Source: Litoreibacter roseus (GTDB lineage Bacteria > Pseudomonadota > Alphaproteobacteria > Rhodobacterales > Rhodobacteraceae). From it: 64,000 nt of DNA. The notes beneath the pieces are model-generated. The model did no database searches. It was given only the letters and a program-made list of their open reading frames with translations, and was not told the DNA's origin. A program made the translations under genes and the position numbers. Shown here piece after piece: positions 12,536-31,088 of the stretch; position 1 is the first letter of the stretch; each line of letters begins with the position of its first letter. The stretch lies in assembly GCF_009811795.1 (NCBI RefSeq), contig NZ_BLJE01000004.1:1-64000 (forward strand), written 5' to 3'.

Positions 12536-12838
12536 TCAAGATTGACCGCCTTCTGCCGGGCAGGTCGCATATTTCTGGGGCGCCGGCTTATGCAATCCGT
12601 GCCTTTGCTCGGAAATGGCCAGAACCGAGGAAATCGTGGAAACGGTGTAAGGCACCAGAAACGTCAGCAGTACTTTCCCCCAATCTCCGGGTGACATGGT
12701 GCCTGACAGGATTCTGTCGCCGTGATTGATCGCAGCCAGAACATGCCCGACAATCAGTGCCATGATCAGCGCGCGCCGCACCACAGTTCGGCGGGTGACA
12801 AGCCGAAAAAGCGGCTCGGCTTCAGGTTGCGGGTTCAT
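12536..12838 (-). CDS. nrtS: NrtS-type nitrate/nitrite transporter
   Basis: 100 aa. Two hydrophobic helices (RRALIMALIVGHVLAAINHG and WGKVLLTFLVPYTVSTISSV) with the conserved AINHGDRIL and PYTVST motifs match NrtS, a small nitrite/nitrate uptake protein of bacteria. The ATG at 12838 overlaps the 3' end of the maleylacetate reductase gene by 17 bases, so it is co-transcribed and probably translationally coupled. Its place in an aromatic operon is unusual. The tail after HGLHKPAPQK is longer than in the relatives I recall. Confidence 0.72.
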   Translation of the reverse strand: MNPQPEAEPLFRLVTRRTVVRRALIMALIVGHVLAAINHGDRILSGTMSPGDWGKVLLTFLVPYTVSTISSVLAISEQRHGLHKPAPQKYATCPAEGGQS

Positions 12839-13883
12839 GTCCGTGCCATGCGTTTTCCAAGAGCGTAACAAGGGCGTCACGCTCCAGCGCTCGGGGGTTG
12901 AAGTACGGGTTCTCCAGCGTGATGTCGACCGCACGCGCTATTCCGTCCTGCGGCATTCCCAGCTCTTCCAGCGAGGTCGGTACTCCGGCAGATTGCGCGA
13001 TCTGAAAGAGGGCGGCAGCAGGTTTGTCTGACTCGGTGGCACGGCGCAGCGCCTCCATCGCCCGCGGTATCGCGGGAGCGTTGTAGGCCAAGGCATGGGG
13101 CAGGATCACGGTATGCGTTTCCGCATGTGGCAGATCGAACGACCCGCCCAGAACATGGCACAGCTTGTGGTGCAGCGCCACGCCGCCCGATCCCAGACAC
13201 ACGGCGCAGAGCCATGCCCCATAGAGCGCATCGGAGCGAGCGTCGATGTCGGCGGGGGCCTCCTGAACACGGGCCAGCGCGCTGGTCATTTTGGCAATGC
13301 CGTCCTCTGCCATGAGCGACAGCACTGGATTCGCCTCTTGCGCGTAGAGCGCCTCGACCGCGTGCGCGATGGCGTTCATCCCGCTGGTGACAGTCATTTT
13401 TGGGGGTAGGGTCAGCGTAAAGTTCACGTCGTAGATGACGGTCTCCGGTAAAACCTTCAGCGTGCGTTGCGTGGTCTTTTTACCAGCCTCGGTCTGACCG
13501 ATGATCGGAGTCATTTCGGAACCCGCGTAGGAGGTCGGCAGCACCACCTGTGGTGCGTCGTTGCGTAACGCAATGGCCTTGCCCAATCCGATGGTAGACC
13601 CGCCACCGATGGACACGATTCCATCCGCGCCCGCCGTCTTAAAGGCCGCCATTGCGCGTTCCGTCACCTCGACGGGCGTGTGCATCGCCGCTTCGGAAAA
13701 CACGCCTGCCGATGCGTTTCCCAAGATCTCGGCCAGCGCTTCACCCTCGGCTTTCTGGTGGGTCGTTGTAAGCACCAAGGCTTTCTTGATGCCAAGGGCG
13801 CCCACTTCATCCGGCAGGGCAGCAGTGGTGCCGACGCCAAAAACGACACGCGCGGGCAGACCAGTATATGTGAAGCTGTTCAT
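12822..13883 (-). CDS. macA: Maleylacetate reductase
   Basis: 353 aa, group III (iron-type) alcohol dehydrogenase fold. GGGST and the LPTSYAGSEMTPIIG motif are typical of maleylacetate reductases, and ALHHKLCHVLGGSFDLPHAETHTVILPH covers the histidine-rich active-site segment in two motifs. It reduces maleylacetate to 3-oxoadipate (also reductively dechlorinating 2-chloromaleylacetate in known cases). This is the joining step between chlorocatechol or hydroxyquinol cleavage and the 3-oxoadipate pathway. It lies 97 bases after the thiolase gene in the same direction. Confidence 0.9.
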   Translation of the reverse strand: MNSFTYTGLPARVVFGVGTTAALPDEVGALGIKKALVLTTTHQKAEGEALAEILGNASAGVFSEAAMHTPVEVTERAMAAFKTAGADGIVSIGGGSTIGLGKAIALRNDAPQVVLPTSYAGSEMTPIIGQTEAGKKTTQRTLKVLPETVIYDVNFTLTLPPKMTVTSGMNAIAHAVEALYAQEANPVLSLMAEDGIAKMTSALARVQEAPADIDARSDALYGAWLCAVCLGSGGVALHHKLCHVLGGSFDLPHAETHTVILPHALAYNAPAIPRAMEALRRATESDKPAAALFQIAQSAGVPTSLEELGMPQDGIARAVDITLENPYFNPRALERDALVTLLENAWHGHEPAT

Positions 13884-13980
13884 CGTTTCATCCTATGGAT
13901 CATGAACGTATTCTGCCCGTCAGGCATTATAGCGTCCAATATGGTTTGGAGCCTTCTTTCATGCCAAAAACGTATTGAAG

Positions 13981-15183
13981 TCAGACCCGTTCGAGAGCGA
14001 CAGCGATGCCTTGGCCGACACCGATACACATGGTTGCAAGCGCCATTTTGCCGCTGCGCCGCGCAAGTTCCAGCGCAGCGGTGCCCGTGATCCGGGCGCC
14101 TGACATCCCAAGCGGATGGCCGAGAGCAATCGCTCCGCCATTGGGGTTGATGTGATCCGCGGCCTCAGACAGGCCAAGCTCCCGCAGTACCGCGATGCCT
14201 TGCGATGCAAAAGCTTCGTTCAGTTCGATCACGTCGAAATCGGTTGGGCTGATCCCAAGCCGCGCGCAGAGCTTCATTGTGGCGGGGGCGGGGCCGATGC
14301 CCATGATGCGGGGTGGTACACCCGCCGTGGCTCCGCCTGCGATGCGGGCCAACGGGGTCAAGCCATGGCTCCTGATTGCCTCGGCTGAGGCAATGATCAT
14401 CGCGGCTGCCCCGTCATTCACGCCTGACGCATTGCCCGCCGTGACCGTTCCACCGTCCCGGAACGGGGTTGGCAGGCTGGCCAGTTTTTCGAGCGAGGAC
14501 GGGCGTGGGTGCTCGTCGGTGTCGAAAACCAGTGCGTTGCCCTTGCGTTGGGGAATGGAGACCGGCGTGATTTCTTCCGCCAGCCGTCCGGCGGCGATGG
14601 CGTCTGCCGCAAGGGTCTGGCTTCGCAGGGCAAAATTATCCTGATCGGCACGTGAAATGCCAAAGTCTTCGGCTACGTTTTCACCGGTCTCGGGCATGCT
14701 GTCGACGCCGTATTGCGCCTTCATCACCGGATTGACAAAACGCCAGCCGATGGTCGTGTCGTAGACCGAGTTGCTGCGCGAAAAGGCTGCTTCGGCCTTT
14801 GGCATCACAAACGGTGCGCGGCTCATGCTTTCCACGCCGCCCGCGATAGCAAGGTCCATTTCGCCCGCGCGAATGGCGCGCGCCGCGGTGATGACCGCAT
14901 CCATGCCAGACCCGCAGAGCCGGTTTATCGTGGTGCCCGGTACGGCCTCGGGCAAGCCTGCCAACAAAAGGGACATACGCGCGACGTTACGGTTATCTTC
15001 GCCCGCCTGGTTGGCGCATCCATAGATCACTTCGTCCACTACCGCCCAATCAAGGGACGTATTGCGATCCATCAGAGCGCGCAACGGAACGGCTCCCAGA
15101 TCATCAGCGCGGACCGAGGCCAGCGTGCCACCGAACCGCCCGATAGGCGTTCGGATGTAGTCGCAGATGAAGGCTTCGGGCAT
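13981..15183 (-). CDS. pcaF: 3-oxoadipyl-CoA thiolase
   Basis: 400 aa thiolase. Acyl-enzyme Cys90 (INRLCGSGMD), His356 (ALGHPLGMSGAR) and the C-terminal Cys386 (MCIGVGQG). The N-terminus DYIRTPIGRFGG is that of the PcaF/PaaJ group. It splits 3-oxoadipyl-CoA into succinyl-CoA and acetyl-CoA. The ATG at 15183 overlaps the CoA-transferase stop codon (TAATG), confirming the operon and the start; a longer frame to 15303 lies within the upstream gene. Confidence 0.92.
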   Translation of the reverse strand: MPEAFICDYIRTPIGRFGGTLASVRADDLGAVPLRALMDRNTSLDWAVVDEVIYGCANQAGEDNRNVARMSLLLAGLPEAVPGTTINRLCGSGMDAVITAARAIRAGEMDLAIAGGVESMSRAPFVMPKAEAAFSRSNSVYDTTIGWRFVNPVMKAQYGVDSMPETGENVAEDFGISRADQDNFALRSQTLAADAIAAGRLAEEITPVSIPQRKGNALVFDTDEHPRPSSLEKLASLPTPFRDGGTVTAGNASGVNDGAAAMIIASAEAIRSHGLTPLARIAGGATAGVPPRIMGIGPAPATMKLCARLGISPTDFDVIELNEAFASQGIAVLRELGLSEAADHINPNGGAIALGHPLGMSGARITGTAALELARRSGKMALATMCIGVGQGIAVALERV

Positions 15184-15959
15184 TACGCCACCTCTTTTAC
15201 ATGTGCGGCGGCCGTCCGTGCCTTCAGCGCGCGCAAGACTTCCAGTTCTTCGGTTGTGGGCGGCGGCGTTTCCTCGACATCCGCGCCATAGCGAATGTCC
15301 CATCCAACGGTGTCGGCCATATCCGCCTGTGTCACGCCGGGATGCAATGACATGACAGTAAACTCCTTGGTCTCAGGGTCCGGCCGCCACACGGCCTTAT
15401 CGGTGATCAGCAAGGTTGGCCCCGCTGTTGTGATCCCAAGCTCTTGTCGATGCGGCCCGCCGCGCCCATGCCCGAAGGAGGTGAAAAAATCGATCTGCCG
15501 CACAAAACTTCGTCTCGCCTGCTTCATTGTTATGAATATCTGCTGACAGGACGACGCGATCTCGGGCGCACCTCCACCACCGGGCAGGCGGACTTTGGGT
15601 GCGTGATAATCCCCCACGACGGTCGTGTTGATGTTCCCGAACCGATCGAGCTGCGCCGCACCCAGGAAGCCGACGGTGATCCGTCCGCCCTGCAGCCAGT
15701 ACCGGAACATCTCAGGGACCGGCACCGTCGTGACGGCTGTGTCACACAGCTCGCCATCACCGATCGAGAGGGGGAGGACCTCTGGAGCGGTGCCAATGGT
15801 GCCGGATTCGTAAATCAGGGTGATGTCAGGCGCATGGGTCAGTCGCGCCAGGTTGCACGCGGCGGAGGGCGCGCCGATGCCCACAAAACAGACATCGTTG
15901 TTCGACAGCGCGCGGGCGGCGGCAACTGTCATGAGTTCATCTGCGATATACTGGGTCAT
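15183..15959 (-). CDS. pcaJ: 3-oxoadipate CoA-transferase, beta subunit
   Basis: 258 aa, glutaconate CoA-transferase-type subunit B, with the catalytic Glu51 in LIYESGTIG. It is larger than classical PcaJ (about 215 aa) and so resembles the CatJ type described in chloroaromatic-degrading Pseudomonas B13. It overlaps both the alpha subunit gene and the thiolase gene. With the alpha subunit it moves CoA from succinyl-CoA to 3-oxoadipate. Confidence 0.88.
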   Translation of the reverse strand: MTQYIADELMTVAAARALSNNDVCFVGIGAPSAACNLARLTHAPDITLIYESGTIGTAPEVLPLSIGDGELCDTAVTTVPVPEMFRYWLQGGRITVGFLGAAQLDRFGNINTTVVGDYHAPKVRLPGGGGAPEIASSCQQIFITMKQARRSFVRQIDFFTSFGHGRGGPHRQELGITTAGPTLLITDKAVWRPDPETKEFTVMSLHPGVTQADMADTVGWDIRYGADVEETPPPTTEELEVLRALKARTAAAHVKEVA

Positions 15960-16810
15960 GTTTCACCTTTGAGCTGGCTGACGCGCGACGCGAAGGCGGA
16001 CGCGTCGGCGTTCAGGACATTTTCGTGCATCCATTTGCCGAACGTGTCTCGATCTGCCGCGATCTTGTCCCAGTTGAGGTAGGCGGCGTTGTCTCGGGGA
16101 TAGTACCCATGGGCATAGGATGGGTGTGCTCCGCCTGGAACGTGGACGAGAGCGTCAATGGTCCAGTACGGCAGGACGCAGACGTTAGTGTGCGCATCCA
16201 GCTGTTCAACTACCTCTTCGACGGTGACGATTGCGGATTTGGCGGCCAGCACCGCCTCTTTTTGGACACCCACGATCCCCTCAATCAGCACGTTGCCCCG
16301 CCGGTCGGCTTTCTGGGCATGGATAACGCTGACATCGGGGCGGATCGCCGGGACTGCGGACAAAGCCTCACCCGTAAAGGGACAGGTGACGCTGCGGATG
16401 TTCGGGTTCACGTCTTTGAGCCCGGCACCGAGGTATCCCCGAAACACCGCCATGGGCAGCCCGGCGGCCCCAGCCTCGTAAGCGTTGGCCATCGCTGCGT
16501 GGGAGTGTTCCTCGATCTCAAGCGCACGTGGCCAGTCGTTTTCGACCGCGTCTCGCAGCCGGCGCAACAGGCCAACGCCGGGATTGCCCGCATAGGAGAA
16601 GACGGCCTTGCGCGCCAGTCCCATGCCGATCATCTGGTCATAGACCAGATCGGGCGTCATCCGGATCAGGGTCAGGTCGTCGATGCCCTGGCGAATGACT
16701 TCGTGCGCCGCGGCATGGGGGATCAGATGGGTGAACCCTTCGAATGCGACCGACATGCCGGGTCGAATGATCGTTCTTACGGCGTCCTGAAGTGCGTGGA
16801 ATTTGGCCAT
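15956..16810 (-). CDS. pcaI: 3-oxoadipate CoA-transferase, alpha subunit
   Basis: 284 aa CoA-transferase subunit A, glutaconate CoA-transferase type: GMSVAFEGFTHLIPHAA near the N-terminus, then NPNIRSVTCPFTGE and VIHAQKADRRGNV. Longer than classical PcaI (about 230 aa), like CatI of Pseudomonas B13. First gene of the minus-strand operon pcaI-pcaJ-pcaF-macA-nrtS, divergent from a LysR regulator across about 92 bases. Confidence 0.88.
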   Translation of the reverse strand: MAKFHALQDAVRTIIRPGMSVAFEGFTHLIPHAAAHEVIRQGIDDLTLIRMTPDLVYDQMIGMGLARKAVFSYAGNPGVGLLRRLRDAVENDWPRALEIEEHSHAAMANAYEAGAAGLPMAVFRGYLGAGLKDVNPNIRSVTCPFTGEALSAVPAIRPDVSVIHAQKADRRGNVLIEGIVGVQKEAVLAAKSAIVTVEEVVEQLDAHTNVCVLPYWTIDALVHVPGGAHPSYAHGYYPRDNAAYLNWDKIAADRDTFGKWMHENVLNADASAFASRVSQLKGET

Positions 16811-16902: not shown

Positions 16903-17841
16903 ATGAATCTGCTGTCCAGCATCACGCTTAAGCAGCTGCGCTGTTTCGTCGAGACCTATCATACGCACAGCGTCGCGGACGCCGCTGAGGCCTTGGGCAT
17001 CACGCAATCGGCCGCAAGCCGCCGGATCTCGGACCTTGAGACGCTGCTTGATACCCGGCTGTTCACACGGTCTGGGCGGCGATTGATGCCCAACGTCACG
17101 GCGACTTTGTTGCTGCGCCATGCCGAGGCTGCATTGCAGAAACTTGGCGCGGGGCTTGACCTGATTGCAGGTGCCGGCGCAGGTAATCGTCCGGCGCTGG
17201 TCATCGGTGCGCTGCCCACGGTTACTGGGACCGTTGTGCCGCGTGCTGTTTTGCGGATGCGGGTGGCGGTGCCAGACCTTTTGATCCGGATCGAAACAGG
17301 GTCAGGCGATCAATTGCTGCCGCGTTTGCGTAGCGGGCAACTGAATTGCGTCGTCGGGCGCATGGCGGCCACTGATCAGATGACAGGGCTTCGTTTTGAC
17401 CCGCTGTTTCGCGACCGGCTGGCCTTCGTCACCCGGGTAACGCATCCGCTTGCCGATGCCAAAACCTCTGCAAGCGCGCTTGCGCGGTATCCGCTCGTGA
17501 TGCCGCCGCAGAACGCCGTGATCCGCCCCGTCGTCGATGCGTTTCTTGCCGCGCGTGGCATCGGATTGCCCGAGGACCGCATTGAGACGACCGACCAATC
17601 GGTTGCGACGGCTATTTTGCGCGAAACCGATGCGATCTGGATCATTTCACGCGGTGTGGCAGAGGCGTTGGTGGCCGAGGGGCGGTTGACCTTTCTGTTG
17701 ATAGATGCCGCCGACACGATCGGTGCGATCGGTCTGATGCAGCGTAGCGATGAACAGTCTCCGGAAATGAACGCCTTTGCAGATTGCCTATACGATGCAG
17801 CGGTTCCGAACACTGCCGGCGGAGGTGATGCGATACCATAG
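16903..17841 (+). CDS. LysR-family regulator, PcaQ/GbpR-like
   Basis: 312 aa. N-terminal winged helix: ITLKQLRCFVETYHTHSVAD, then AAEALGITQSAASRRISDLE. The effector domain (ALVIGALPTVTGTVVPRAVLR) is of the PcaQ/GbpR subgroup, which responds to 3-oxoadipate-pathway intermediates or sugars. It is divergent from pcaIJF-macA-nrtS and is followed in the same direction by the MBL hydrolase, catB and catC, so it could control both units. The spacer 16811-16902 is AT-rich with an imperfect GAAT/ATTC dyad near 16861. I do not see a perfect PcaQ box. Confidence 0.82.
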   Translation: MNLLSSITLKQLRCFVETYHTHSVADAAEALGITQSAASRRISDLETLLDTRLFTRSGRRLMPNVTATLLLRHAEAALQKLGAGLDLIAGAGAGNRPALVIGALPTVTGTVVPRAVLRMRVAVPDLLIRIETGSGDQLLPRLRSGQLNCVVGRMAATDQMTGLRFDPLFRDRLAFVTRVTHPLADAKTSASALARYPLVMPPQNAVIRPVVDAFLAARGIGLPEDRIETTDQSVATAILRETDAIWIISRGVAEALVAEGRLTFLLIDAADTIGAIGLMQRSDEQSPEMNAFADCLYDAAVPNTAGGGDAIP

Positions 17842-17927
17842 AGGTATTGAGCAAGCAAAGAGTTGGTATTGGACGGCATGATGTTTGCCAGGCAAATAGG
17901 AGTCAAACATATGTGACGGAGAACGAC

Positions 17928-18830
17928 ATGACGATCGGACCTTTGCCCCGAATGACGCCAAAGATCGTAGGGGCTATGCGTGTTCATGCGCTCTTGGATT
18001 CCGTTGGGCCCACCCGAAAACCGGTCGAGATGTTGCGCGATGTGCCTGATGCGATTGTCGATCAGCATAAGGACTGGCTTGTGCCAAACTATGTCGCGCC
18101 GGATACGGGGCTGATGATCATGGCCTACCAGTCCTTTCTGATCGAATTGGGCGGCAAGGTCATTCTGGTCGATTGCGCGGTGGGTGAAGACGGCAACTTT
18201 CCCGCACGTCCCGACTGGCATCTCGGGAAATCTGACTGGCTGAACCATCTGGGGCAGGCGGGCCATCCGCCCGAAGACATTGACACCGTGTTTCTGACCC
18301 ATTTGCATCTGGACCACACCGGCTGGCTGACCCGCAAGACAAAGGACGGCTGGGTGCCAAGTTTCCCCAAGGCCCGCCATGTGACCAGCGCGACCGAACT
18401 GGAATTCTGGCCCAAGAAGCACGAAGAGTTCCCCTATATGGCCAGTTCGATCCCGGATTCTGTCACTCCCGTGATCGAGGCGGGCCTGTTCGCGCCCATC
18501 GCACCGGAGACTGAGATTGCGACTGACTTGTTTGTCGTCGATCTGGCGGGGCATTCACCGGGCATGATTGGATTGGAATACCGTCAGGATGGACAGGTTC
18601 TGGCCGCCTTCAACGCCGACCTGATGCACAGTCCGGTCCAGATGGCCGCGCCCGGCTGCGCCACGATGTTCTGCGCCGATCCCGCGGCAGCGGTCGCAAC
18701 GCGGCGCGACAAGCTGGCGCAATATGCCAAGGACAAGACACTGATGTTCTGCAACCACTTTCCGGGCGAATGTGCAGGCCACGCCGTGCCGCGCGGTGAC
18801 GGCTACATGTTCGTTCCGGTGACGGGGTAA
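17928..18830 (+). CDS. Metallo-beta-lactamase-fold hydrolase, candidate lactone hydrolase
   Basis: 300 aa. The zinc motif HLHLDH is at residues 125-130 (THLHLDHTGW), with further ligands in VDLAGHSPGM and CNHFPGE. The fold class includes N-acyl homoserine and other lactonases. GGAG lies just before the ATG at 17928; an upstream in-frame start at 17847 has none. It is five bases before catB and in line with catC. The cluster lacks both PcaD (enol-lactone hydrolase) and ClcD/TfdE (dienelactone hydrolase), so this protein is the best local candidate to open the lactone. The fold call is sure; the role is inference. Confidence 0.85.
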   Translation: MTIGPLPRMTPKIVGAMRVHALLDSVGPTRKPVEMLRDVPDAIVDQHKDWLVPNYVAPDTGLMIMAYQSFLIELGGKVILVDCAVGEDGNFPARPDWHLGKSDWLNHLGQAGHPPEDIDTVFLTHLHLDHTGWLTRKTKDGWVPSFPKARHVTSATELEFWPKKHEEFPYMASSIPDSVTPVIEAGLFAPIAPETEIATDLFVVDLAGHSPGMIGLEYRQDGQVLAAFNADLMHSPVQMAAPGCATMFCADPAAAVATRRDKLAQYAKDKTLMFCNHFPGECAGHAVPRGDGYMFVPVTG

Positions 18831-18835
18831 GGCGC

Positions 18836-19978
18836 ATGCTGAAGTCTCTCGTCGAACACCATCTGGGAAAAGTTGACCGGGTCGAGACCTTTCTTGTCGA
18901 TCTACCGTTCAAACGGTTGCAACGGTTCGCCCGCCTGGATGCCCGTGCTCAGACATCGTTGTTGATACGGATCACCGATCAGCATGGGGCGCAAGGGATC
19001 GGAGAGGCCATCGTTCCCTGTGGACCGTGGTGGTCCGGCGACAGTGTGGAGTCGATGAAGATCATCATCGACACCTACCTCGCTCCGGCGATGATCGGGT
19101 GTGAGCTAAGCCGGTTTAACGCGATCTTCGATACGCTCGCCCGGGTGGCCCGTGGCAATTTGTTGGCCAAGGCTGGGCTTGAAATGGCCTGTCTTGATTT
19201 GATCGGCAAATCGTTGGATGTGCCGGTGCATGTCCTTCTGGGTGGAAAACGCCGTGAAAGCTGCCCTATCGCCTGGCCCCTTGCCAGCGGTGATCCGGCA
19301 CAGGACCGGACTGAAATTGAGGATATGCTGTCCACCGGTCGCGCCAGCGCTTTCAAGGTGAAGGCGGGCGCAGATGACTTGCAGTCCGACCTGCGCCGGA
19401 TAGCCGATCTGACCGCCGCGCTTGCCGGGCGGGCGCCCCTGCGGATCGACCCGAACGAAAGCTGGTCAGAAATGCACGCGCTTGTCGCACTGCCGCAACT
19501 GGTGGCCATGGGTGTCGAACTGATCGAACAGCCCGTTCCACGAGAACAAATGGCCGTGATGGGCCGCATCACCGCGCGGTCTTCCGTGCCGATTATGATA
19601 GACGAAGGTGTACAGACAGACACCGACATGGCCCACTGCATTGAAGCTGAGGCCGCGCATATGGTGTCGATCAAGATCATGAAGTCCGGGGGTATGGGCG
19701 CCGCTCGTCGCGTGGCTGATCTTGCCCACACCGCAGGCATGCCCCTCTATATGGGAACTTTTCTGGAAACCGGCATCGGCACGGCCGCTGGGATGCATTT
19801 GGCGGCGACCCTGCCCAGCTTGCCCTTCGGGGGAGAGATCTTTGGTCCTCTTCTGATGCAAGACGATCTGCTGAGAGATCCCATGCAGTACAAGCAGGGG
19901 GCCGTATGGCTGCCTGAGGGGGCGGGTTTGGGGGTGCAGATCGATGACGACAAGCTGCGCCACTACACGCGCGTTTGA
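18836..19978 (+). CDS. catB: Muconate cycloisomerase (first copy)
   Basis: 380 aa enolase-superfamily enzyme of the muconate lactonising group. Catalytic residues are in place: Lys174 and Lys176 (AFKVKAG), metal ligands Asp205 (IDPNES), Glu231 (LIEQP) and Asp256 (MIDEG), and Lys280 (SIKIMKSGG). It converts cis,cis-muconate to muconolactone; chloromuconates are possible substrates. Its stop overlaps the catC start (TGATG), which pairs it with the classical branch. A second copy lies convergently at 20272-21423. Confidence 0.9.
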   Translation: MLKSLVEHHLGKVDRVETFLVDLPFKRLQRFARLDARAQTSLLIRITDQHGAQGIGEAIVPCGPWWSGDSVESMKIIIDTYLAPAMIGCELSRFNAIFDTLARVARGNLLAKAGLEMACLDLIGKSLDVPVHVLLGGKRRESCPIAWPLASGDPAQDRTEIEDMLSTGRASAFKVKAGADDLQSDLRRIADLTAALAGRAPLRIDPNESWSEMHALVALPQLVAMGVELIEQPVPREQMAVMGRITARSSVPIMIDEGVQTDTDMAHCIEAEAAHMVSIKIMKSGGMGAARRVADLAHTAGMPLYMGTFLETGIGTAAGMHLAATLPSLPFGGEIFGPLLMQDDLLRDPMQYKQGAVWLPEGAGLGVQIDDDKLRHYTRV

Positions 19979-20262
19979 TGCTGTTTCTTGTCCGCATGGA
20001 TGTGTGTTTGCCCTCTGATCTGAGTGATCAAGAGGCCGAAACGCTCAAGCACCAAGAAAAGCTTTATGCGCAAAAGCTGCAATGTGAGGGCACTTGGCTG
20101 CATCTTTGGCGTGTGGCCGGGCACTACGCAAACGTCAGCGTATTCTCTGTGGAGGACCTCGACACCTTGCATACGGCGCTCACCGGCTTGCCATTTTTTC
20201 CGTTTCTCGAGATCGAGATCACGCCGCTTTGTGCGCATCCGAGCCGTGTAGCACCTGAGTGA
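19978..20262 (+). CDS. catC: Muconolactone delta-isomerase
   Basis: 94 aa with the full CatC pattern: MLFLVRMDVCLP at the start, LQCEGTWLHLWRVAGHYANVSVF in the middle, and LPFFPFLEIEITPLCAHPS at the end. It isomerises muconolactone to 3-oxoadipate enol-lactone and forms a ferredoxin-like barrel decamer in known cases. The ATG overlaps the catB stop by one base. In Rhodococcus opacus 1CP a CatC relative (ClcF) works as 5-chloromuconolactone dehalogenase; this protein keeps the canonical GTWxHLWRxxGHY segment, so the ordinary isomerase is the first choice. Confidence 0.92.
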   Translation: MLFLVRMDVCLPSDLSDQEAETLKHQEKLYAQKLQCEGTWLHLWRVAGHYANVSVFSVEDLDTLHTALTGLPFFPFLEIEITPLCAHPSRVAPE

Positions 20263-20271: not shown

Positions 20272-21423
20272 TCAGGTCTTTCGCGTCATAGCCGCGACCC
20301 GATCTTCATCCAGATCAATGCCCAATCCAGGTCCGTCCGGCAGGTGCGCCGCACCTCCTGTATAAGCCACAGGGTTTGCCGCTATGTCGTCGGCCATCAG
20401 CATCGGACCAATCACCTCGCCACCCAACGGCAGTGCCTTGCAAGTGGCCGCCAGATGCAGGCCCGCTGCAGTGCCTAGCGAGGTCTCAAGGAAAGTTCCC
20501 ATGTAGAGGGACATACCGCCCGTCTCGGCCAGATCGGCCATGCGACGGCTGGCCCGCAGGCCGCCCGCCTTCATTATCTTGAGCGACAACAGATGCGCCG
20601 CGCCGCTCTGGACTGCGCGCAGCACATCCGCTTCAGACTGTGCCCCCTCGTCGATCATGATCGGCACGCCAGAGCGCGCGGACATTCTGGACATCCAATC
20701 CAGCTGCACGCGGTCGAAGGGCTGTTCGATCATGTCGATACCCATTTCCTGTAGGCGGGGCAGGGCCAGCTTAGCGTCGGTAAAGCTCCACGCTTCGTTT
20801 GGATCGACCCGCACACCTGCGCGCCCGTTCAAATGAGTGACGTAAGCCTGCACACGGTCCAAGTCACGGCGCAGCGTTTCGGACCCCATCTTGACTTTGA
20901 ACGCGCTCGCCCGGCCCGTTGAAAGCATCGTGTCGATTTCCTGCAAGTCGGTATCTAAGTCGCCGCTGGCAAGCGGCCATGCCACCGCACATTCATCCCT
21001 AAACTTTCCTCCCAGAAGAGCCCAGACAGGCAGGCCGACGTGACGCCCCAACAGATCCAGCAGCGCCATTTCGACACCTGCTTTGGCGAAGGAGTTTCCG
21101 CGCGCAACGCGGGCAATGCCGGCCAGCGCATGTTCCACATTGCGCAGATCCAGACCTACAAATTCCGGCGCAAAATACTGATCAATCATCAGCTTCATGG
21201 TCTCAACCGCGTCACCGGACCACCACGGCCCGCAAGGCACAGTCGCCTCGCCAATGCCTTGCATGCCGTTCGAGGCAGTCAGCCGGACAAGGACCGTTGT
21301 CTGCGCCGTTGCCTCGAACCTTGCAAAGCGCTGGGTGCGTTTGAAAGGCACATCGAGTATTGCGGTTTCAATGCGTTCGACAGTCGCAGGAGGTGCGGGA
21401 ATCTGGGCCGAAATAACATTCAT
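20272..21423 (-). CDS. Muconate/chloromuconate cycloisomerase (second copy)
   Basis: 383 aa, same family as the first copy, with Lys176 and Lys178, Asp207, Glu233, Asp258 and Lys282 all conserved. By eye it is near 60% identical to the first copy, both having the unusual VPCGPWWSGD loop. It ends nine bases from catC, convergently, and its start faces the LysR gene catR across about 98 bases. That is the classical CatR-type divergent arrangement, so this copy is probably induced with the dioxygenase and may serve substituted (for example chlorinated) muconates. Which copy prefers which substrate cannot be read from sequence. Confidence 0.88.
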   Translation of the reverse strand: MNVISAQIPAPPATVERIETAILDVPFKRTQRFARFEATAQTTVLVRLTASNGMQGIGEATVPCGPWWSGDAVETMKLMIDQYFAPEFVGLDLRNVEHALAGIARVARGNSFAKAGVEMALLDLLGRHVGLPVWALLGGKFRDECAVAWPLASGDLDTDLQEIDTMLSTGRASAFKVKMGSETLRRDLDRVQAYVTHLNGRAGVRVDPNEAWSFTDAKLALPRLQEMGIDMIEQPFDRVQLDWMSRMSARSGVPIMIDEGAQSEADVLRAVQSGAAHLLSLKIMKAGGLRASRRMADLAETGGMSLYMGTFLETSLGTAAGLHLAATCKALPLGGEVIGPMLMADDIAANPVAYTGGAAHLPDGPGLGIDLDEDRVAAMTRKT

Positions 21424-21472
21424 GGTCTAGCCTTGTTTCAGAGTTACGCTTGTCTAGCCTTTGAATTGCCTT

Positions 21473-21487
21473 ACGGTAAAATACCGT
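21473..21487. promoter_or_regulatory. Candidate CatR-type operator
   Basis: A perfect dyad ACGGTA, AAA, TACCGT lies between the divergent cycloisomerase gene and the LysR gene. ATACCG recurs at 21503-21508. CatR/ClcR/BenM regulators bind ATAC/GTAT-rich dyads in just such divergent promoters, though their usual spacing (ATAC-N7-GTAT) differs from this one. Confidence 0.5.
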
Positions 21488-21521
21488 TGCGGAACTTGGT
21501 TGATACCGAAGGAGTATGGCG

Positions 21522-23422: not shown

Positions 23423-25201
23423 ATGACGGCACGTTACGAAACCGAAGTCCTTATCATCGGGACAGGCCCTGCTGGGGCCGCAGCCGCAGCACTTCTGGCC
23501 AAATACGACATCAAGACGATGATTGTGAACAGGTATGGCTGGACGGCCCCTACGCCGCGCGCTCACATCACCAATCAGCGCACGATGGAGGTGATCCGCG
23601 ACCTTGGACTTGAGGAAGACGCGAAGAGATATGCGGTTCCCAACGATCAGATGGGGGAGAATACCATCTGCGCAAGTCTGGCGGGCGAGGAGTTCGGCCG
23701 GATCAGGACATGGGGCACGGACGTGCGCCGCCGCGCGGATTACGACGAATGTTCGCCGACGTCGATGTGCGACATTCCCCAGAACCTGCTGGAACCGATC
23801 CTTGTGAAATCTGCCGCGCTGGATGGGGGTAAGGTGCGGTTCGATACCGAATACGTTTCGCACCAGCAGGACGCAAGCGGGGTCACGGCCTTGCTACGCG
23901 ACCGGCTGAGCGGAGAAGACTTCGAGGTTCGGGCCAAATACATGATCGGTGCGGACGGGGCCAATTCCCAAGTCCTCGCCGATCTTGGCTTGCCGCTTGA
24001 AGGACAGATGGGGAAATCCGGCTCCATTAATATGGTGTTCGAGGCGGATCTGTCGAAGTACGTAGCACACCGCCCGTCCGTTCTCTATTGGGTGATCCAG
24101 CCCGGATCGGACATCGGCGGGCTTGGCATCGGGGTCGTGCGTATGGTGCGCCCGTGGAACAAATGGCTGGCCATCTGGGGATATGATGTCGAACAGGGGC
24201 CGCCCGATCTGGACGATGCCTTTGCCACCGAGATCGTACACAAGTTGATCGGTGACGACAGCGTTCCGGTCAAGATCGAAGGCACGTCCACCTGGACGGT
24301 CAACGATATGTACGCCACCAACCTTCAGAAGGGGCGGGTGTTTTGTGCCGGAGACGCGATCCACCGCCACCCGCCGACAAACGGCCTCGGCTCCAACACG
24401 TCCATTCAGGACAGTTTCAATCTGTGCTGGAAAATTGCGATGGTCCTGCGCGGACAGGCCGACGAAAGCCTGCTTGAAACCTATACAACAGAGCGTGCGC
24501 CGGTGGCCAAGCAGATCGTCAAACGTGCCAATAAATCGCTCGGTGATTTCCCACCGATCGCCATGGCCCTCGGTTTGCCACAGGCAAAGAGCGTCGACGA
24601 GATGTACGCCAACATGGCCAAGCGCAAGGAATCCACGACCGAGGCAGAGACACAACGCGCTCAATTGCGCGCCGCGATCGCGGGCACCGACTATGTCTAC
24701 AATGCGCATGGCGTTGAGATGAACCAACGCTACGACAGCACGGCCATCGTTTCAGATGGATCCGATCCAGAAGAGTTCCGCGATGAAGAACTCTATCATC
24801 AGGCGTCATCGCGTCCTGGCGCGCCGGTCCCACATGTATGGGTGTACCGCGCCGATGGGCATCGTGTATCGACCAAGGATCTGTGTGGGCAGGGCCGCTT
24901 TACGCTGTTGACGGGACTGGGCGGCGAAGGATGGCGCAAGGCTGCGGATGCGGTGCGCGAATCCTTGGGTGTCGAGATTGACGTCCGTGTGATTGGGCCA
25001 GGTCAGGCTTTTGAGGATCACTACGGCGATTTTGCAGCAATACGTGGGACAGTTGACAGCGGTGCACTGCTTGTGCGGCCGGATTTTCATATCGCATATC
25101 GCGCGGAAACCTATTCGGGAACTGCCGCCAACGATCTTGTCAATGCAATGTCCGCCGTCTTGGGCCGCGCGACCGGTCGCCAGATACGGGCCGCTGAATA
25201 G
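23423..25201 (+). CDS. FAD phenol monooxygenase, TfdB (2,4-dichlorophenol 6-monooxygenase) type
   Basis: 592 aa (TfdB is 598). FAD site GTGPAG at residues 13-18, the segment TAPTPRAHITNQRTMEVIRD, GADG at 176-179, and the second FAD motif GDAIHRHPPTNGLGSN from 310. A thioredoxin-like C-terminal domain follows. The match to TfdB runs through the whole chain, including HRPSVLYWVIQPGSD and VRPWNKWLAIWGYD. It ortho-hydroxylates (chloro)phenols to catechols with NADPH. GGAGG precedes the ATG at 23423; the upstream start at 23369 has no site. Chlorophenol as the real substrate is inferred from the family. Confidence 0.88.
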   Translation: MTARYETEVLIIGTGPAGAAAAALLAKYDIKTMIVNRYGWTAPTPRAHITNQRTMEVIRDLGLEEDAKRYAVPNDQMGENTICASLAGEEFGRIRTWGTDVRRRADYDECSPTSMCDIPQNLLEPILVKSAALDGGKVRFDTEYVSHQQDASGVTALLRDRLSGEDFEVRAKYMIGADGANSQVLADLGLPLEGQMGKSGSINMVFEADLSKYVAHRPSVLYWVIQPGSDIGGLGIGVVRMVRPWNKWLAIWGYDVEQGPPDLDDAFATEIVHKLIGDDSVPVKIEGTSTWTVNDMYATNLQKGRVFCAGDAIHRHPPTNGLGSNTSIQDSFNLCWKIAMVLRGQADESLLETYTTERAPVAKQIVKRANKSLGDFPPIAMALGLPQAKSVDEMYANMAKRKESTTEAETQRAQLRAAIAGTDYVYNAHGVEMNQRYDSTAIVSDGSDPEEFRDEELYHQASSRPGAPVPHVWVYRADGHRVSTKDLCGQGRFTLLTGLGGEGWRKAADAVRESLGVEIDVRVIGPGQAFEDHYGDFAAIRGTVDSGALLVRPDFHIAYRAETYSGTAANDLVNAMSAVLGRATGRQIRAAE

Positions 25202-25426: not shown

Positions 25427-26809
25427 ATGTCCATCATCCGCGAAGCATTGGAAGATGAAGACCAGTTCTCGTCCGTTGCGCCAACGACCAGCTATTTTCG
25501 GCGGCTGCGCAGCGATCTGAAAAAATACACTGGCAAGAAGCTGGCAAACAGCGTGGGTCGCGTGCCCGGATTTGGCGGATTGAAAAACGCCAACCCAAAA
25601 CCTGAATTGCAAGAATTGACGTCTGACGCCGGTTTCATGGCGGATTGGTACAAAAAGCCTTTTGGTGACGGCGACAAGCCGGACTCGCTTGCCGAGGTTC
25701 CGTGGGACTACATCGAGGCCCATCAGCATGAAGTCCCGTTCTGGGGCTTGCGAGAATACTGGTATCCGGCGCTTATGTCCGATGATCTGAAACACAACGA
25801 GCACCAATCGGTCAAATTGCTGGGGGACAATATCGTCCTGTTTCGCAATGCCGACGGGACGCCGAACGCCCTGGAAAACCGTTGCCCGCACCGCGGCCCC
25901 CTGCTGTCGCTGGGTCAGACAAATGTCTGGGACGTTGGTACGATCACCTGCCGCTATCACGGGATGACCTTCGACGGGCAGGGCAACTGCGTCGCGTTTC
26001 TGGCCGATGGTCCCAACAGCCCGGCCTGTGCCAAGGTCAAGGCAAAGTCCTACCCCGCCGAAGAGGTGGGGGGGATCATCTTTGTTTATATGGGGGTGCA
26101 GGAACCCAAACCTTTCCTCGATTCGATGCCGCACGCGCACGAAGTGTTCGCGCCGGGCACGGAAATCCGCAACACCCTCCATGTTCCTTACAGCTATCTG
26201 AACAGCCTCGACAACACCGTCGACATGACACATGTCGGATGTCTGCACCGCAGCTGTTACCTGTTCGGAGATCAGAAAATGGGTGGCGGGGTCGCATTTG
26301 AGGAACTCCCGGGCAACGGTATCTACGCCCATCTCCGCGACACTGGTGGACATGGCGGTGACAAGGCGATCGACGACATCCGATGGTTCATGCCCAACCT
26401 CGTGCACCACGGCGAAGAGTTCATGGAGGGCAAGGTAAACGGGCTCTATCTGTGGTTCGTCCCCGAAGATGTCGGCAGCTTCAAAGCCTGGATGATGGGC
26501 TCAATCAAGACCGAGAAAGCCGGTAAGGTCGGAGCCAAGATGATCCAGACGGTACTGACGCGCGCCCTGCAATCGGACGCGCTGCCGGGGATGGCCTGTT
26601 TTGTCGGGGGAGATGCTCCGATGCAAATGGCACAAGGCCGCGTTGCGCGCTGGGATCTGGACTATCTGGCCCGGACGGACCGGGCCATCGTCAAAGTGCG
26701 GCAGATCATGAAAGATGCACATAAGGCAGAAATGAAACTGCGTGAAGATATGGGGCTGGACCCGCTTGTACACCGCGCGCCCACAAAACGGGTCGCGTCG
26801 ACGGGTTGA
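25427..26809 (+). CDS. Rieske non-haem iron oxygenase, large subunit
   Basis: 460 aa. Rieske cluster ligands Cys143, His145, Cys165, His168 (CPHRG then CRYHG). Mononuclear iron motif N253-x2-D256-x2-H259-x4-H264 (DNTVDMTHVGCLH). There is an N-terminal extension of about 95 residues before the usual oxygenase start. GGGAGG lies before the ATG. No small subunit is nearby, so it fits the phthalate-dioxygenase/VanA-like group (alpha-only) working with a PDR-type reductase, which is encoded at 30123-31088. Substrate unknown; O-demethylation or attack on an aryl ether or carboxylate would feed the phenol pathway. Confidence 0.88.
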   Translation: MSIIREALEDEDQFSSVAPTTSYFRRLRSDLKKYTGKKLANSVGRVPGFGGLKNANPKPELQELTSDAGFMADWYKKPFGDGDKPDSLAEVPWDYIEAHQHEVPFWGLREYWYPALMSDDLKHNEHQSVKLLGDNIVLFRNADGTPNALENRCPHRGPLLSLGQTNVWDVGTITCRYHGMTFDGQGNCVAFLADGPNSPACAKVKAKSYPAEEVGGIIFVYMGVQEPKPFLDSMPHAHEVFAPGTEIRNTLHVPYSYLNSLDNTVDMTHVGCLHRSCYLFGDQKMGGGVAFEELPGNGIYAHLRDTGGHGGDKAIDDIRWFMPNLVHHGEEFMEGKVNGLYLWFVPEDVGSFKAWMMGSIKTEKAGKVGAKMIQTVLTRALQSDALPGMACFVGGDAPMQMAQGRVARWDLDYLARTDRAIVKVRQIMKDAHKAEMKLREDMGLDPLVHRAPTKRVASTG

Positions 26810-26825
26810 TCGTCGAGCCCACGTT

Positions 26826-26966: not shown

Positions 26967-28115
26967 ATGAAAAATTCAACCAAAGGCCTTTTGGGCCTAA
27001 CCATTGGCATATGCGTATTGTCCGAAACAGCGGGGGCCGAGGGATTTGACCGCGCGTTGCCCAACACCGAATTTCTGTTTCAGCCCGGCGGTTATGCCGA
27101 GATCGGTGCGGGCTATCTGATGCCCGAAATCACCGGCGTATTTCCGGCGCCGGGCGGTGATGTCGCAACCGGGAATATCGGTCGCGATTTTTTCACGCCT
27201 CAATTTGCGATCAAATACGATGTCAACGAAAAGTTGTCTTTTGGCCTGCAATTCTCGCAACCCTACGGCCTATTGGCGCAGTATCCTCTTGGCACGCCTC
27301 CCGGTGCGCCGGTCCCGGCGCAAGGCACCGGCGGTGATTTCGGTGCGGATGAAGTGGGTATCTCCGCACGCTACAAGTTCACGCGCAATCACAGTGCGTT
27401 CGGATCGGTCCGCGTTCAACGCTACTCAGGGTATCTGAACCGTGGCGGTGTCCGCTTTGATTTCGGCAGCAGCACTGAGCTGGGGTATTCGCTTGGCTAC
27501 GCCTTCGAGATACCTGAGCGCCGCTTGTTGTTCACGGCCGAGTACACATCCGCTGTGAAGCACACCCATGTGACGAAACCCCGTCACGACGGTCTGGTGG
27601 CAATCGCCGATGTTGAATCGCCTGTCGGGGTATCCTTTGTGCCGGCGGTCACTGGCACGCCGCTTGAAAATGACACAATACATCGCACGCCGCAGTCCCT
27701 GACCCTGAACTTCCGAAGCCAACTGCCGATCGGGGACGGGAAGAACCTGATATTTGGCCGCTATCGCTGGGCTGACTGGTCAGAGGCTGACATCTCGTTC
27801 AATGGGCTGAACCCGACCCAATTCACAGACTCCCAGCATTTCGCACTGGGATTGGGTCGCGTCGTTACGGAAAATTTGGCGCTGACCGGAATGGTCGAAT
27901 ACCGCACCGGCGGCGCAAGCCCGAAACCAGGGCTGACACCATTCGAGAACTCAATCGGTCTGGTGTTGGGCGGACGGTACATTCTGAACGACAATGTCGT
28001 GCTTCAGGCAGCTTATACTTACGTCAAATTTGATGATGCGACGACGACAAGTGGTGGTGTCTTTACCGACAACAGTGCCGAAGGCATCGCCTTCAAGATC
28101 GGTTACTACTTCTGA
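26967..28115 (+). CDS. FadL/TodX-family outer membrane hydrocarbon porin
   Basis: 382 aa. A signal peptide (about residues 1-24, ending TAGA-EGF) precedes the OmpP1/FadL pattern: N-terminal ALPNTEFLFQPGGYAEIG, many alternating beta strands, and a terminal aromatic residue (KIGYYF) as in outer membrane barrels. FadL-type proteins let hydrophobic aromatics cross the outer membrane by lateral diffusion. Its location between the Rieske oxygenase and its reductase suggests uptake of the substrate of this cluster. Confidence 0.85.
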   Translation: MKNSTKGLLGLTIGICVLSETAGAEGFDRALPNTEFLFQPGGYAEIGAGYLMPEITGVFPAPGGDVATGNIGRDFFTPQFAIKYDVNEKLSFGLQFSQPYGLLAQYPLGTPPGAPVPAQGTGGDFGADEVGISARYKFTRNHSAFGSVRVQRYSGYLNRGGVRFDFGSSTELGYSLGYAFEIPERRLLFTAEYTSAVKHTHVTKPRHDGLVAIADVESPVGVSFVPAVTGTPLENDTIHRTPQSLTLNFRSQLPIGDGKNLIFGRYRWADWSEADISFNGLNPTQFTDSQHFALGLGRVVTENLALTGMVEYRTGGASPKPGLTPFENSIGLVLGGRYILNDNVVLQAAYTYVKFDDATTTSGGVFTDNSAEGIAFKIGYYF

Positions 28116-28176
28116 TTTTCTCAATCGCAACCGTCTTACCACAAAAATCTGAACCCGACCCAAGACAGGAAAAACC

Positions 28177-28539: not shown

Positions 28540-28628
28540 TCGTCGGCATGCATGGCCGGACCTTGTCGCATGCGCCGGCTCCGGCGATCCCCAGACCTTT
28601 CAGTTTTGACAAATCGGAGACTTCAAAC

Positions 28629-28940
28629 ATGCACTATATCATTAACAATCACGACAACCCCGACAAAGCGGCCCTTCGCATGGAGGTTCGCGAGGCACAT
28701 ATCGCCTATCTCAAGTCGGATCATCCGGGCGCCAAGCTGGTGATGGCGGGCCCTCTTCTGGACGGTCACGGGGAGATGATCGGATCTCACCTGGTCGTCG
28801 CCGCAGATGATATCGCCGCTGTCGAGCAGTTTCAGCAAGACGATCCGATGGCGCAGTCAGGTCTGTTTTTATCCAGCCGCATCGACCCTTGGAAGTGGGT
28901 GATCGGCAATCCGGACGCACCTGCGCACCAGCCCAGTTAG
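28629..28940 (+). CDS. YciI-family protein
   Basis: 103 aa, ferredoxin-like dimeric barrel of the YCII superfamily. The conserved His (VREAHIAYL) and Asp (QQDDPMAQSGLF) typical of its active site are present. The ATG at 28629 has GGAG about 10 bases upstream. TftG, the 5-chlorohydroxyquinol dehydrochlorinase of 2,4,5-T degradation, belongs to this superfamily. In a chloroaromatic-like cluster this protein is a candidate for dehydrohalogenation or lactone rearrangement; the family alone does not prove it. Confidence 0.75.
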   Translation: MHYIINNHDNPDKAALRMEVREAHIAYLKSDHPGAKLVMAGPLLDGHGEMIGSHLVVAADDIAAVEQFQQDDPMAQSGLFLSSRIDPWKWVIGNPDAPAHQPS

Positions 28941-29172: not shown

Positions 29173-29235
29173 TTTGGGTAAAACCCGATGCCGGAAGCGT
29201 ATCGAGTTTCGTCCAAATCTTGGGGAGGAGGAGAG

Positions 29236-30126
29236 ATGTCACTATTGGATATCCGGATGTCACGGATCGACGCGGGGTACGTGCATATTGAAAAAGGACA
29301 TCACTACGACGTACCCGTGCAACAGTTCAGTTCTCTCTACATTCCGCAGACCTGCCATATAGAGGTCTCTGTCGAAGGCGGCGCGTTTGAGCGTGTCGAA
29401 CGCGGCGGCCTGGTGGGATTGCCCAAAGGCACCGCGCACCGTCTGCGCCTGCCCGGAGAGCCACAACAGGCCCGTGGCACGATCGCGCCGCCGTTTGCCG
29501 CCCTGCGCACCCGAAATCGAATGGCCGAAAGGGTTTTTGCGGCGCGCCATGCCGTGTCCATCAATCCAATTCCTGATCTGGTGCCAACCCTGATTAGCGC
29601 CACGTGCGCCGAGATCGCCGCAGATCCCAGGCTAAAATCAACTGTGTCGGTCATCTGTGAGCTCGCCGATACCGGTACCAATACCCACGATGCAGTTTTT
29701 GTACGGATGTCCGAAGCGCTCGCGCTTGTCTTGATCGAGCGTGTCATGGAGCGTTCTGCGCCCGAAGGTGCCAGTGTGGACGGTGCCTTTCACGATATGC
29801 GGTTGCGCAACGCTATCCGGGCGATGCACGAACGCCCCGCAGAAGATTGGTCGCTCAACAGTCTCGCAAAGGAGGTCGGGTTGAGCCGATCCGCGTTTGC
29901 CGAAACGTTCCGAAATTCGACCGGGCAGACCCCCTACCAGTATCTGACAAGAGTCCGCATCGACGCCGCGACCCATTTGCTTGGCACTCCCAACCTGTCG
30001 ATTTCCGAGATCGCGTGGCAATCGGGTTATCAGTCGGACGCAGCGTTCATAAAGGCGTTCCGACGCATTGTCGGGGTTAGCCCTGGCGCGTACCGGCGGG
30101 CGCAAACTCAGGGTGCTCCTGCCTAG
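29236..30126 (+). CDS. AraC-family transcriptional regulator
   Basis: 296 aa. N-terminal cupin-like sensing domain (AraC_binding_2/CupinR type: VEGGAFERVERGGLVGLPKGTAHRL) and a C-terminal AraC domain with two helix-turn-helices (WSLNSLAKEVGLSRSAFAETF and ISEIAWQSGYQSDAAFIKAFRRIVG). A GGAGGAG ribosome site precedes the ATG at 29236. It is convergent with the oxygenase reductase, overlapping at the 3' ends by four bases. Probably regulates the Rieske/porin genes. Confidence 0.83.
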   Translation: MSLLDIRMSRIDAGYVHIEKGHHYDVPVQQFSSLYIPQTCHIEVSVEGGAFERVERGGLVGLPKGTAHRLRLPGEPQQARGTIAPPFAALRTRNRMAERVFAARHAVSINPIPDLVPTLISATCAEIAADPRLKSTVSVICELADTGTNTHDAVFVRMSEALALVLIERVMERSAPEGASVDGAFHDMRLRNAIRAMHERPAEDWSLNSLAKEVGLSRSAFAETFRNSTGQTPYQYLTRVRIDAATHLLGTPNLSISEIAWQSGYQSDAAFIKAFRRIVGVSPGAYRRAQTQGAPA

Positions 30127-31088
30127 AGATCCAGCACGATCCTTGATCCGGGCGCACCGCGTGACACGCACAGCGCAATCGCGGAGTTCTGTTCTTGTTC
30201 GTCAGGATAGAGGCTCGTATCGCGATGGATGATCTCGCCGCTGTCCAACACCTGAACGATGCAGGTGCCGCAGACGCCCTCCAGGCAGGATTGAGGGACC
30301 GAGACACCCTGCTCTCTCAGGGTCTCCAGGATCGAGCATTCCTTTGCCACGGGATAGACTGGGCCATCGCCCTTGAGTTGAACTTCGAATTCTCCGGCAT
30401 CCTCGGCGGACAACGGGGCGAGGTTCGCCTTGAAACGTTCCTGATGAAAGTGTCCAGCAGGCAGCCGTGAAGCCGCCTCCTGCACCGCGTCAAGAAACCC
30501 GGTGGGCCCGCAAGCATAGAGATGGTCGTTGCTGCGCAAACCACCGACGAATGCGGCGATATCCAGCGGGTTGGGGTCGTCGACCTCGTCATAGTGGTAG
30601 ATGATATTGGCGGCAATTGCCTCGTCTTGTATTTCACAGCGGAAGGCAGCGCGTTCCGGTGTTCTGGCACAGATGCGCAGTTCGTAGCCCGCTCCCCTTG
30701 CTTCAAGAGTTCGGGCCATGGATAGCAGCGGGGTGACGCCGATACCCCCGGCCAACAGAACGGATTTGCCGTGGCTTGGGTGCAGGCCAAAGTTGTTGCG
30801 TGGCGGGGATATCTCGACCGTGTCGCCCACGCGCACCGTATCGCATATTTCGACGGAACCGCCGCGCCCACCTGCGTCGCGCAAAACGCCGATCTCGTAG
30901 CGTCCGTTGTCTTCGGTTGCGCGGGTCAGCGAATACTGCCGGATCAGGCCGGATGGCAGATGCACGTCAATATGGGCCCCGGCTTCACACGCGGGCAGGG
31001 CGGTGTCCTGGCCTGCCAACCTAAAGGCGACTGTATCCTCTCCTACGATGGCTTTGCCGATCACGGTGACCTTGAGTGTGTTTGACAT
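30123..31088 (-). CDS. PDR/VanB-type oxygenase reductase
   Basis: 321 aa. Domain order: flavin-binding barrel (RQYSLTRATEDNGRYEIGV), NAD-binding domain (LLAGGIGVTPLLSMA, then YACGPTGFLDAV), and a C-terminal plant-type [2Fe-2S] ferredoxin domain (PQSCLEGVCGTC, with the fourth Cys in IALCVSRG). This is the phthalate dioxygenase reductase layout and would feed electrons to the Rieske oxygenase at 25427. GGAGG precedes the ATG at 31088; the frame extends to 31217 without a better start. Confidence 0.88.
   Translation of the reverse strand: MSNTLKVTVIGKAIVGEDTVAFRLAGQDTALPACEAGAHIDVHLPSGLIRQYSLTRATEDNGRYEIGVLRDAGGRGGSVEICDTVRVGDTVEISPPRNNFGLHPSHGKSVLLAGGIGVTPLLSMARTLEARGAGYELRICARTPERAAFRCEIQDEAIAANIIYHYDEVDDPNPLDIAAFVGGLRSNDHLYACGPTGFLDAVQEAASRLPAGHFHQERFKANLAPLSAEDAGEFEVQLKGDGPVYPVAKECSILETLREQGVSVPQSCLEGVCGTCIVQVLDSGEIIHRDTSLYPDEQEQNSAIALCVSRGAPGSRIVLDL

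Follow-up and report, generated by a model that had tools for sequence, protein, structure and literature searches.

A predicted halocatechol degradation cluster of Litoreibacter roseus with a metallo-beta-lactamase-fold protein as candidate dienelactone hydrolase

The 64,000-nucleotide stretch of Litoreibacter roseus (Rhodobacterales) contig NZ_BLJE01000004.1 analysed here, which we call the window, carries a cluster of genes for the degradation of aromatic compounds. We read it, with a probability of roughly 0.6, as a modified ortho cluster for (halo)catechols that probably also serves as the plain catechol route of the genome, and in which a metallo-beta-lactamase (MBL)-fold protein replaces the dienelactone hydrolase ClcD/TfdE; all activities are predicted from the genes, and this applies above all to the MBL step. 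The known pathway requires a dienelactone hydrolase between muconate and maleylacetate. In the proposed route, TfdB would convert (halo)phenol into (halo)catechol and the chlorocatechol dioxygenase would convert the latter into (halo)muconate, from which the two cycloisomerases would either release halide to give dienelactone or form muconolactone for CatC to process. The MBL protein would hydrolyse dienelactone (or a halomuconolactone) to maleylacetate via a metal-bound water, maleylacetate reductase would yield 3-oxoadipate, and CatIJ and CatF would complete the route; the freed halide may be exported by NrtS.

A preliminary description of the cluster had claimed a TfdB-type monooxygenase, a dioxygenase, two cycloisomerases, a LysR regulator, maleylacetate reductase, a CoA-transferase, a thiolase and catC, and all of these are present as judged by domain and curated-model scores. 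LysR regulator 1, the MBL gene, NrtS and the module at 25427-31094 did not feature in that description. Because of the curated scores, and because the core recurs in other genomes, chance can be excluded. The window was compared with five clusters picked by dioxygenase similarity (loci L035 to L039, of which L035 is from a Roseitalea metagenome-assembled genome (MAG) and L036 from Roseobacter sp. H9), making six clusters in all, and with plasmid pMI2 of Sphingobium sp. MI1205 (L056) as a seventh cluster with an MBL gene; C1, C3, C4, C5 and C7 denote contigs of the source genome. A ClcD/TfdE-type hydrolase was not found: tblastn with four dienelactone hydrolases gave no match at E <= 0.1 in the window, L035 to L039 or L056, and a profile of twelve plasmid dienelactone hydrolases, run over all frames of at least 60 residues, gave nothing in the window and a sole weak match in L035 (18.9 bits). 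A search of the source genome with PF01738 likewise gave no match inside the window. We viewed 15 plasmid loci, all taken from the 40 best listed among 826 plasmid records that the dioxygenase matched. In 12 of them a classic dienelactone hydrolase is annotated close to the dioxygenase; an MBL gene is found in one locus (pMI2), and neither gene lies within the viewed stretch of two (L059 and L108, one among insertion sequence elements and one cut). The preliminary description had spoken of a different gene order and host, and both hold, the order being another one and the host belonging to the Rhodobacterales, but this does not go far enough: since no dienelactone hydrolase was found, the cluster is more than a reordering of the known enzymes.

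The MBL gene is present in 6/6 clusters, and a distant member lies beside the dioxygenase on pMI2. Within the stretches compared, the seven clusters contain dioxygenase (7/7), MBL gene (7/7), maleylacetate reductase (6/7; that of L035 was found on another contig), cycloisomerase, TfdB and NrtS (4/7 each) and CatC (2/7). In the stretches of L037 and L039, the MBL gene is kept with the dioxygenase and maleylacetate reductase where TfdB and cycloisomerase were not seen. Because it persists with the reductase there, CatC not being seen either, its natural place would be just before maleylacetate reductase. The distance between the MBL and dioxygenase genes ranges from 142 to 3795 bases, and their order and orientation vary; the pairing has therefore outlived rearrangement. 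At E <= 1e-55, only 3 of the 388 family genomes sampled have an MBL homologue (61-69% identical), namely the source and two that we call G112 and G116, and these are the same three that hold the dioxygenase at more than 300 bits (of 394; twice in G116; next best 185 bits) in a family sample of 394 genomes, the two sets being not quite identical. The coincidence figure of 1e-7 assumes independent genomes, and we do not treat it as a probability. Among the rows listed for the class sample, the next MBL relatives are about 30-40% identical. Further relatives of the dioxygenase came from a scan of GTDB genomes by a method that picks up close relatives only (Roseitalea MAG, 82%; Roseobacter sp. H9, 75%), and at E <= 1e-75 the dioxygenase was found in 1 of 385 genomes of the class sample (the source alone) and in 2 of 398 of the phylum sample, the source included; the locus of the extra phylum genome, L062, duplicates L060 and is not counted separately.

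The MBL protein itself has features that are consistent with a metal-dependent hydrolase. The motif HxHxDH and the subsequent His, Asp and His, which we take to be its metal ligands, are conserved in 7/7 aligned MBL proteins. The best solved relative is 4xuk, a 'putative hydrolase' (1.4e-22), and methyl parathion hydrolase (3.5e-21) and a reconstructed ancestral dihydrocoumarin hydrolase (7.8e-21) score similarly. None of the named NCBIfam lactonase equivalogs passed for this protein, the best being AidB with 68.7 bits vs a cut-off of 360.

Several observations weigh against the assignment of the MBL protein to the dienelactone step. Six of the seven clusters with an MBL gene belong to one lineage, and their agreement is therefore not independent; the MBL superfamily is a broad one, with relatives at E <= 1e-40 in 52 further genomes among the 288 of the class sample; and the AlphaFold model of the protein, built from three sequences, is poor (predicted local distance difference test, pLDDT, 53.7). 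Other hydrolases lie near related dioxygenases. The protein with the weak profile match in L035 (4496-5353) is one, being a general alpha/beta hydrolase by Pfam and not a dienelactone hydrolase; a second L035 hydrolase (15156-16160), 4.4 kb from the dioxygenase and exported-looking, reaches 30 bits on PF01738 vs a cut-off of 21, with Hydrolase_4 scoring higher; and the gene at 16718-17977 of L036 encodes a PcaD-PcaC fusion. PF01738 matches are also present elsewhere in the source genome, at C4:138830 (150 bits) and C5:44357 (138 bits), the C5 protein retaining the Cys nucleophile motif, so that action in trans is possible. In the best-surviving alternative, dienelactone would be opened in trans by these proteins of the dienelactone hydrolase family, and the MBL protein, which counts signal lactonases and organophosphate hydrolases among its relatives, would do another job, on a feeder aryl lactone or ester or in signal quenching. 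We consider this unlikely, given that the two proteins are only 23-27% identical to TfdE_I and lie in surroundings that appear unrelated by eye, that the MBL gene accompanies dioxygenase and maleylacetate reductase genes, not TfdB, and that another MBL branch adjoins the dioxygenase of pMI2.

The three clusters without a cycloisomerase contain a gene of the carboxymuconolactone decarboxylase (CMD) family (PF02627), located at 13619-14437 of L037, 10985-11776 of L038 and 10450-11316 of L039. A profile of these genes gave no match in the window, L035 or L056, and matched only the PcaD-PcaC fusion in L036. The CMD gene may have a part in lactone chemistry. Its treatment as a proven cycloisomerase substitute in L037 to L039 was rejected, because a cycloisomerase gene is present in G112 and G116, where it lies beside a separate catechol-type dioxygenase. 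Since L037 to L039 have CMD and no cycloisomerase, the logic of the pathway differs among the clusters, and this, too, counts against the proposed reading.

The kinship of the other enzymes bears on whether halogenated aromatics are the substrates. The monooxygenase shares 76.8% identity with TfdB_I of pJP4, 64% with TfdB_II and 57% with the paralogue on C7 of the source genome. The trees have midpoint roots and small row sets (16, 20 and 26), so that sister positions may shift with more rows, and those of the dioxygenase and TfdB bear a program warning of long branches meeting. In the TfdB tree, the enzymes of the window, L035, L036 and L038 group with TfdB_I of pJP4 at 100/100, those four alone being joined at 93/95. 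Both cycloisomerases of the window group with the L035 and L036 enzymes at 100/99, and TfdD_II joins them at 100/100. In the third tree, six proteins of the Rhodobacterales group come together at 96/95 within the chlorocatechol (ClcA/TfdC-type) dioxygenases, whereas the C7 enzyme and the catechol-type enzymes of G112, G116 and G1136 fall elsewhere. The preliminary description had placed the dioxygenase with ClcA/TfdC and the monooxygenase with TfdB; both placements are borne out, the latter with TfdB_I, and trees grouping the two with plain catechol or phenol enzymes did not emerge. It had also suggested an independent or marine version of the route. Because of the 77% identity to TfdB_I, the cluster is not wholly independent of the soil tfd genes, and the idea of marine bromo-aromatic substrates has already been published (PMC7313196).

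The merger of the modified ortho pathway with the ordinary catechol route, also part of the preliminary description, is well supported. No separate CatA was found among the PF00775 genes of the genome, and CatC and CatIJF lie within the cluster, which for these reasons is probably also the plain catechol route. The other PF00775 genes encode the alpha and beta subunits of protocatechuate 3,4-dioxygenase on C1 (both above their cut-offs) and one enzyme on C7 (L041), whose five best solved relatives are of the hydroxyquinol type (best in PDB, 6-chlorohydroxyquinol dioxygenase), and which scores 158 bits on the chlorocatechol model and best, far under the cut-off, on a catechol model of NCBIfam. 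A hydroxyquinol route was rejected for the window dioxygenase, as that type sits on C7. From the presence of CatC, CatIJ and CatF in the cluster, the lack of a separate CatA among the genes found, and PcaD elsewhere (on C1, above its cut-off), it could be argued that the cluster is a plain catechol/phenol route whose dioxygenase is of broad range, and that halogenated compounds are not its natural substrates. The best PDB match of the monooxygenase points the same way, being 2-hydroxybiphenyl 3-monooxygenase (673 bits; 500 bits for the entry of 2,4-dichlorophenol 6-monooxygenase), and it also counts against the predicted assignment of the monooxygenase to TfdB, for which this ranking was given less weight than the tree and the plasmid identities. 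A plain cluster is nevertheless quite improbable and was rejected on account of maleylacetate reductase, for which we know of no role in the plain catechol route, and of the trees, in which dioxygenase, TfdB and cycloisomerases all group with halo-aromatic enzymes; furthermore, three related genomes hold a separate catA-catB-like pair besides this dioxygenase. That the MBL protein is instead an enol-lactone hydrolase substituting for CatD in the plain branch, as might be suggested by cycloisomerase 1 and then CatC directly following its gene in the window and by no catD being seen in the cluster, is very unlikely, as the gene persists in L035 to L039 where CatC was unmatched, and PcaD is encoded on C1.

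NrtS is ordinarily tied to nitrate uptake. In the window, L035, L036 and L038 its gene adjoins that of maleylacetate reductase or the MBL gene; it was unmatched in L037, L039 and L056, and NrtS of any kind was found in 7 of 101 related genomes, the source included. The protein of the window has two hydrophobic stretches, and its start codon is uncertain, a GTG at 12934 giving an overlap with the reductase gene. Ordinary nitrate uptake was rejected because of the linkage to the cluster, and NrtS may export halide.

The seventh cluster permits a wider, more tentative view. Since the MBL protein of pMI2 is from a different branch, its presence beside a dioxygenase suggests a second recruitment; its nearest plasmid kin are about 52% identical (Variovorax and Ewingella), and two such loci that we viewed have no dioxygenase. 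It is conceivable, though we would not bet on the whole of it, that the MBL fold provides a third, unrelated way of hydrolysing dienelactone besides the alpha/beta hydrolases and PF04199 and was recruited into halocatechol clusters on at least two occasions, that NrtS is a halide exporter, and that the closest relatives seen here of tfdB_I and tfdD_II of pJP4 belong to marine-type alphaproteobacteria, so that this plasmid may have been assembled in part from a natural gene pool, possibly a bromo-aromatic one. If true, an unrelated fold takes over the only step of the modified ortho pathway for which this cluster lacks the usual enzyme, the annotation 'MBL fold hydrolase', which is easily taken for quorum quenching, will be corrected, the diversity of halo-aromatic degradation will extend into the Rhodobacterales, and there will be a concrete test of the origin of the tfd genes of herbicide plasmids.

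Table 1. Features of the cluster and its neighbourhood, with positions in the window and supporting scores or remarks.
Feature	Position	Strand	Support or remark
NrtS-type small membrane protein (NF038050)	12536..12820	-	46 bits vs cut-off 25; downstream of maleylacetate reductase
Maleylacetate reductase (TfdF/ClcE-like, iron-containing alcohol dehydrogenase)	12822..13883	-	PF00465/PF25137
3-Oxoadipyl-CoA thiolase CatF/PcaF	13981..15177	-	NF006551, 711.6 bits vs cut-off 605
3-Oxoadipate CoA-transferase subunit, CatJ-like	15183..15959	-	weak TIGR02428; 79% in L038
3-Oxoadipate CoA-transferase subunit, CatI-like	15956..16810	-	weak TIGR02429; 74% in L038
LysR regulator 1, PcaQ-like	16903..17841	+	TIGR02424, 269 bits, under cut-off 303.8
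MBL-fold lactonase-like hydrolase, proposed dienelactone hydrolase	17919..18830	+	PF00753
(Chloro)muconate cycloisomerase 1	18836..19978	+	TIGR02534, 385.6 bits vs cut-off 334.95
Muconolactone isomerase CatC	19975..20262	+	PF02426, 5.6e-34; 53% to L056
(Chloro)muconate cycloisomerase 2	20272..21423	-	TIGR02534, 376.8 bits vs cut-off 334.95
Divergent control region	21424..21515	.	TTACGGTAAAATACCG same in Roseitalea MAG (L035)
LysR regulator 2, CatR/TfdR-like	21516..22460	+	47% to two LysR genes of pJP4 tfd region
Chlorocatechol 1,2-dioxygenase	22517..23296	+	NCBIfam TIGR02465, 387.7 bits vs cut-off 359.25
TfdB-type halophenol hydroxylase (predicted)	23423..25201	+	PF01494 (FAD_binding_3) + PF21274 (ring-hydroxylase C-terminal domain)
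Rieske oxygenase	25427..26809	+	PF00355; tied to pathway by position only
FadL/TodX-type outer-membrane transport protein	26967..28115	+	PF03349, 35.1 bits vs cut-off 29.7
YciI-family protein	28626..28940	+	PF03795
AraC-family regulator	29188..30126	+	
Ferredoxin-type reductase	30126..31094	-	PF00970/PF00111

Some entries of Table 1 require comment. The CatI and CatJ scores are far under the pcaIJ cut-offs, and we presume that the two proteins are of the glutaconate-transferase-like CatIJ type; CatC scores 125.7 bits on TIGR03221, slightly short of the NCBIfam cut-off of 130.6; and TIGR02534 does not tell muconate from chloromuconate cycloisomerases apart. Maleylacetate reductase is 73-77% identical to those of L036, L038, L039 and L095, and 45-62% to plasmid maleylacetate reductases. 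The divergent control region contains a putative ATAC-N7-GTAT-like site at 21503, and L036 has one as well (consensus matches only). The module at 25427-31094 was unmatched in the related clusters, apart from a partial AraC match in L039. Its Rieske oxygenase, in which about 100 residues precede the Rieske domain, had no match in L035 to L039 at E 1e-8, and no plasmid record covered 80% of it at one place; the ferredoxin-type reductase is probably its partner, judging by the genes. YciI genes are annotated also in the dioxygenase loci L058, L060, L103, L105 and L108. To the left of the cluster, a transposase-like fragment (integrase core by eye) at 10414-10782 hints at past mobility.

Two further loci of the genome contain related genes. 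A second aromatic cluster at C7:66000-85000 (L041) has a maleylacetate reductase (49%), the TfdB paralogue (57%), the hydroxyquinol-type dioxygenase, a TRAP transporter and, by eye, a branched-chain-type ABC transporter. At C3:342482-343343 (L074 8483-9344), there are broken pieces of a maleylacetate reductase gene (65-76% to that of the window), a stretch of NrtS (72% over 57 residues) and a TfdB fragment of 53 residues, with glycogen-type genes adjoining by eye; this is a decayed second cluster of the same kind.

It should be noted that neither the host group nor the substrate idea is new, as both were preceded by earlier reports: according to the text available, marine chlorocatechol clusters with a bromo-aromatic role have been proposed for sponge-associated Hyphomonadaceae (PMC7313196), and a Rhodobacterales MAG of a macroalgal microbiome was assigned chlorophenol degradation functions (PMC10919026). 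In the available portions of the open PMC papers, we found no hydrolase replacement, NrtS linkage or close TfdB_I kinship of this kind, and no MBL-fold (metallo-beta-lactamase) dienelactone hydrolase or chlorocatechol-linked MBL-fold enzyme; the words marine and alphaproteobacteria were not found in the accessible parts of two papers on tfd evolution (PMC10531765, PMC11507517).

Among the known systems, the sponge Hyphomonadaceae share with the window a chlorocatechol dioxygenase in marine alphaproteobacteria; their pathway differs in that, in the text available, it lists carboxymethylenebutenolidase, the classic dienelactone hydrolase (PMC7313196). The trans-dienelactone hydrolase of Pseudomonas reinekei MT1 resembles the proposed enzyme in being a metal-dependent answer to the same step that is not an alpha/beta hydrolase, but, as far as the accessible text goes, it belongs to the cyclase-like family PF04199 and does not have the MBL fold (PMC4108320, PMC5341072). 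Members of the MBL group of methyl parathion hydrolase and dihydrocoumarin lactonase rank with the solved sequences nearest to the MBL protein of the window. Plasmid pMI2 (NZ_CP005191) shares with the window CatC-like, cycloisomerase, MBL, dioxygenase and maleylacetate reductase genes, no dienelactone hydrolase being annotated in 18.7 kb; in contrast, its MBL protein is 33% identical and of another branch, and neither TfdB nor NrtS was matched in the pMI2 stretch. Finally, the tfd clusters of pJP4 (Cupriavidus pinatubonensis JMP134) and its relatives have in common with the window the TfdB (76.8% to TfdB_I), cycloisomerases of the TfdD_II clade, a dioxygenase (45-47%), maleylacetate reductase and a TfdR-like LysR regulator. 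They differ from it in gene order and in that the window, in which no TfdE-type dienelactone hydrolase was found, contains the MBL gene, CatC, CatIJF and NrtS, and that its cluster lies in a Rhodobacterales genome, on a contig of 358 kb.

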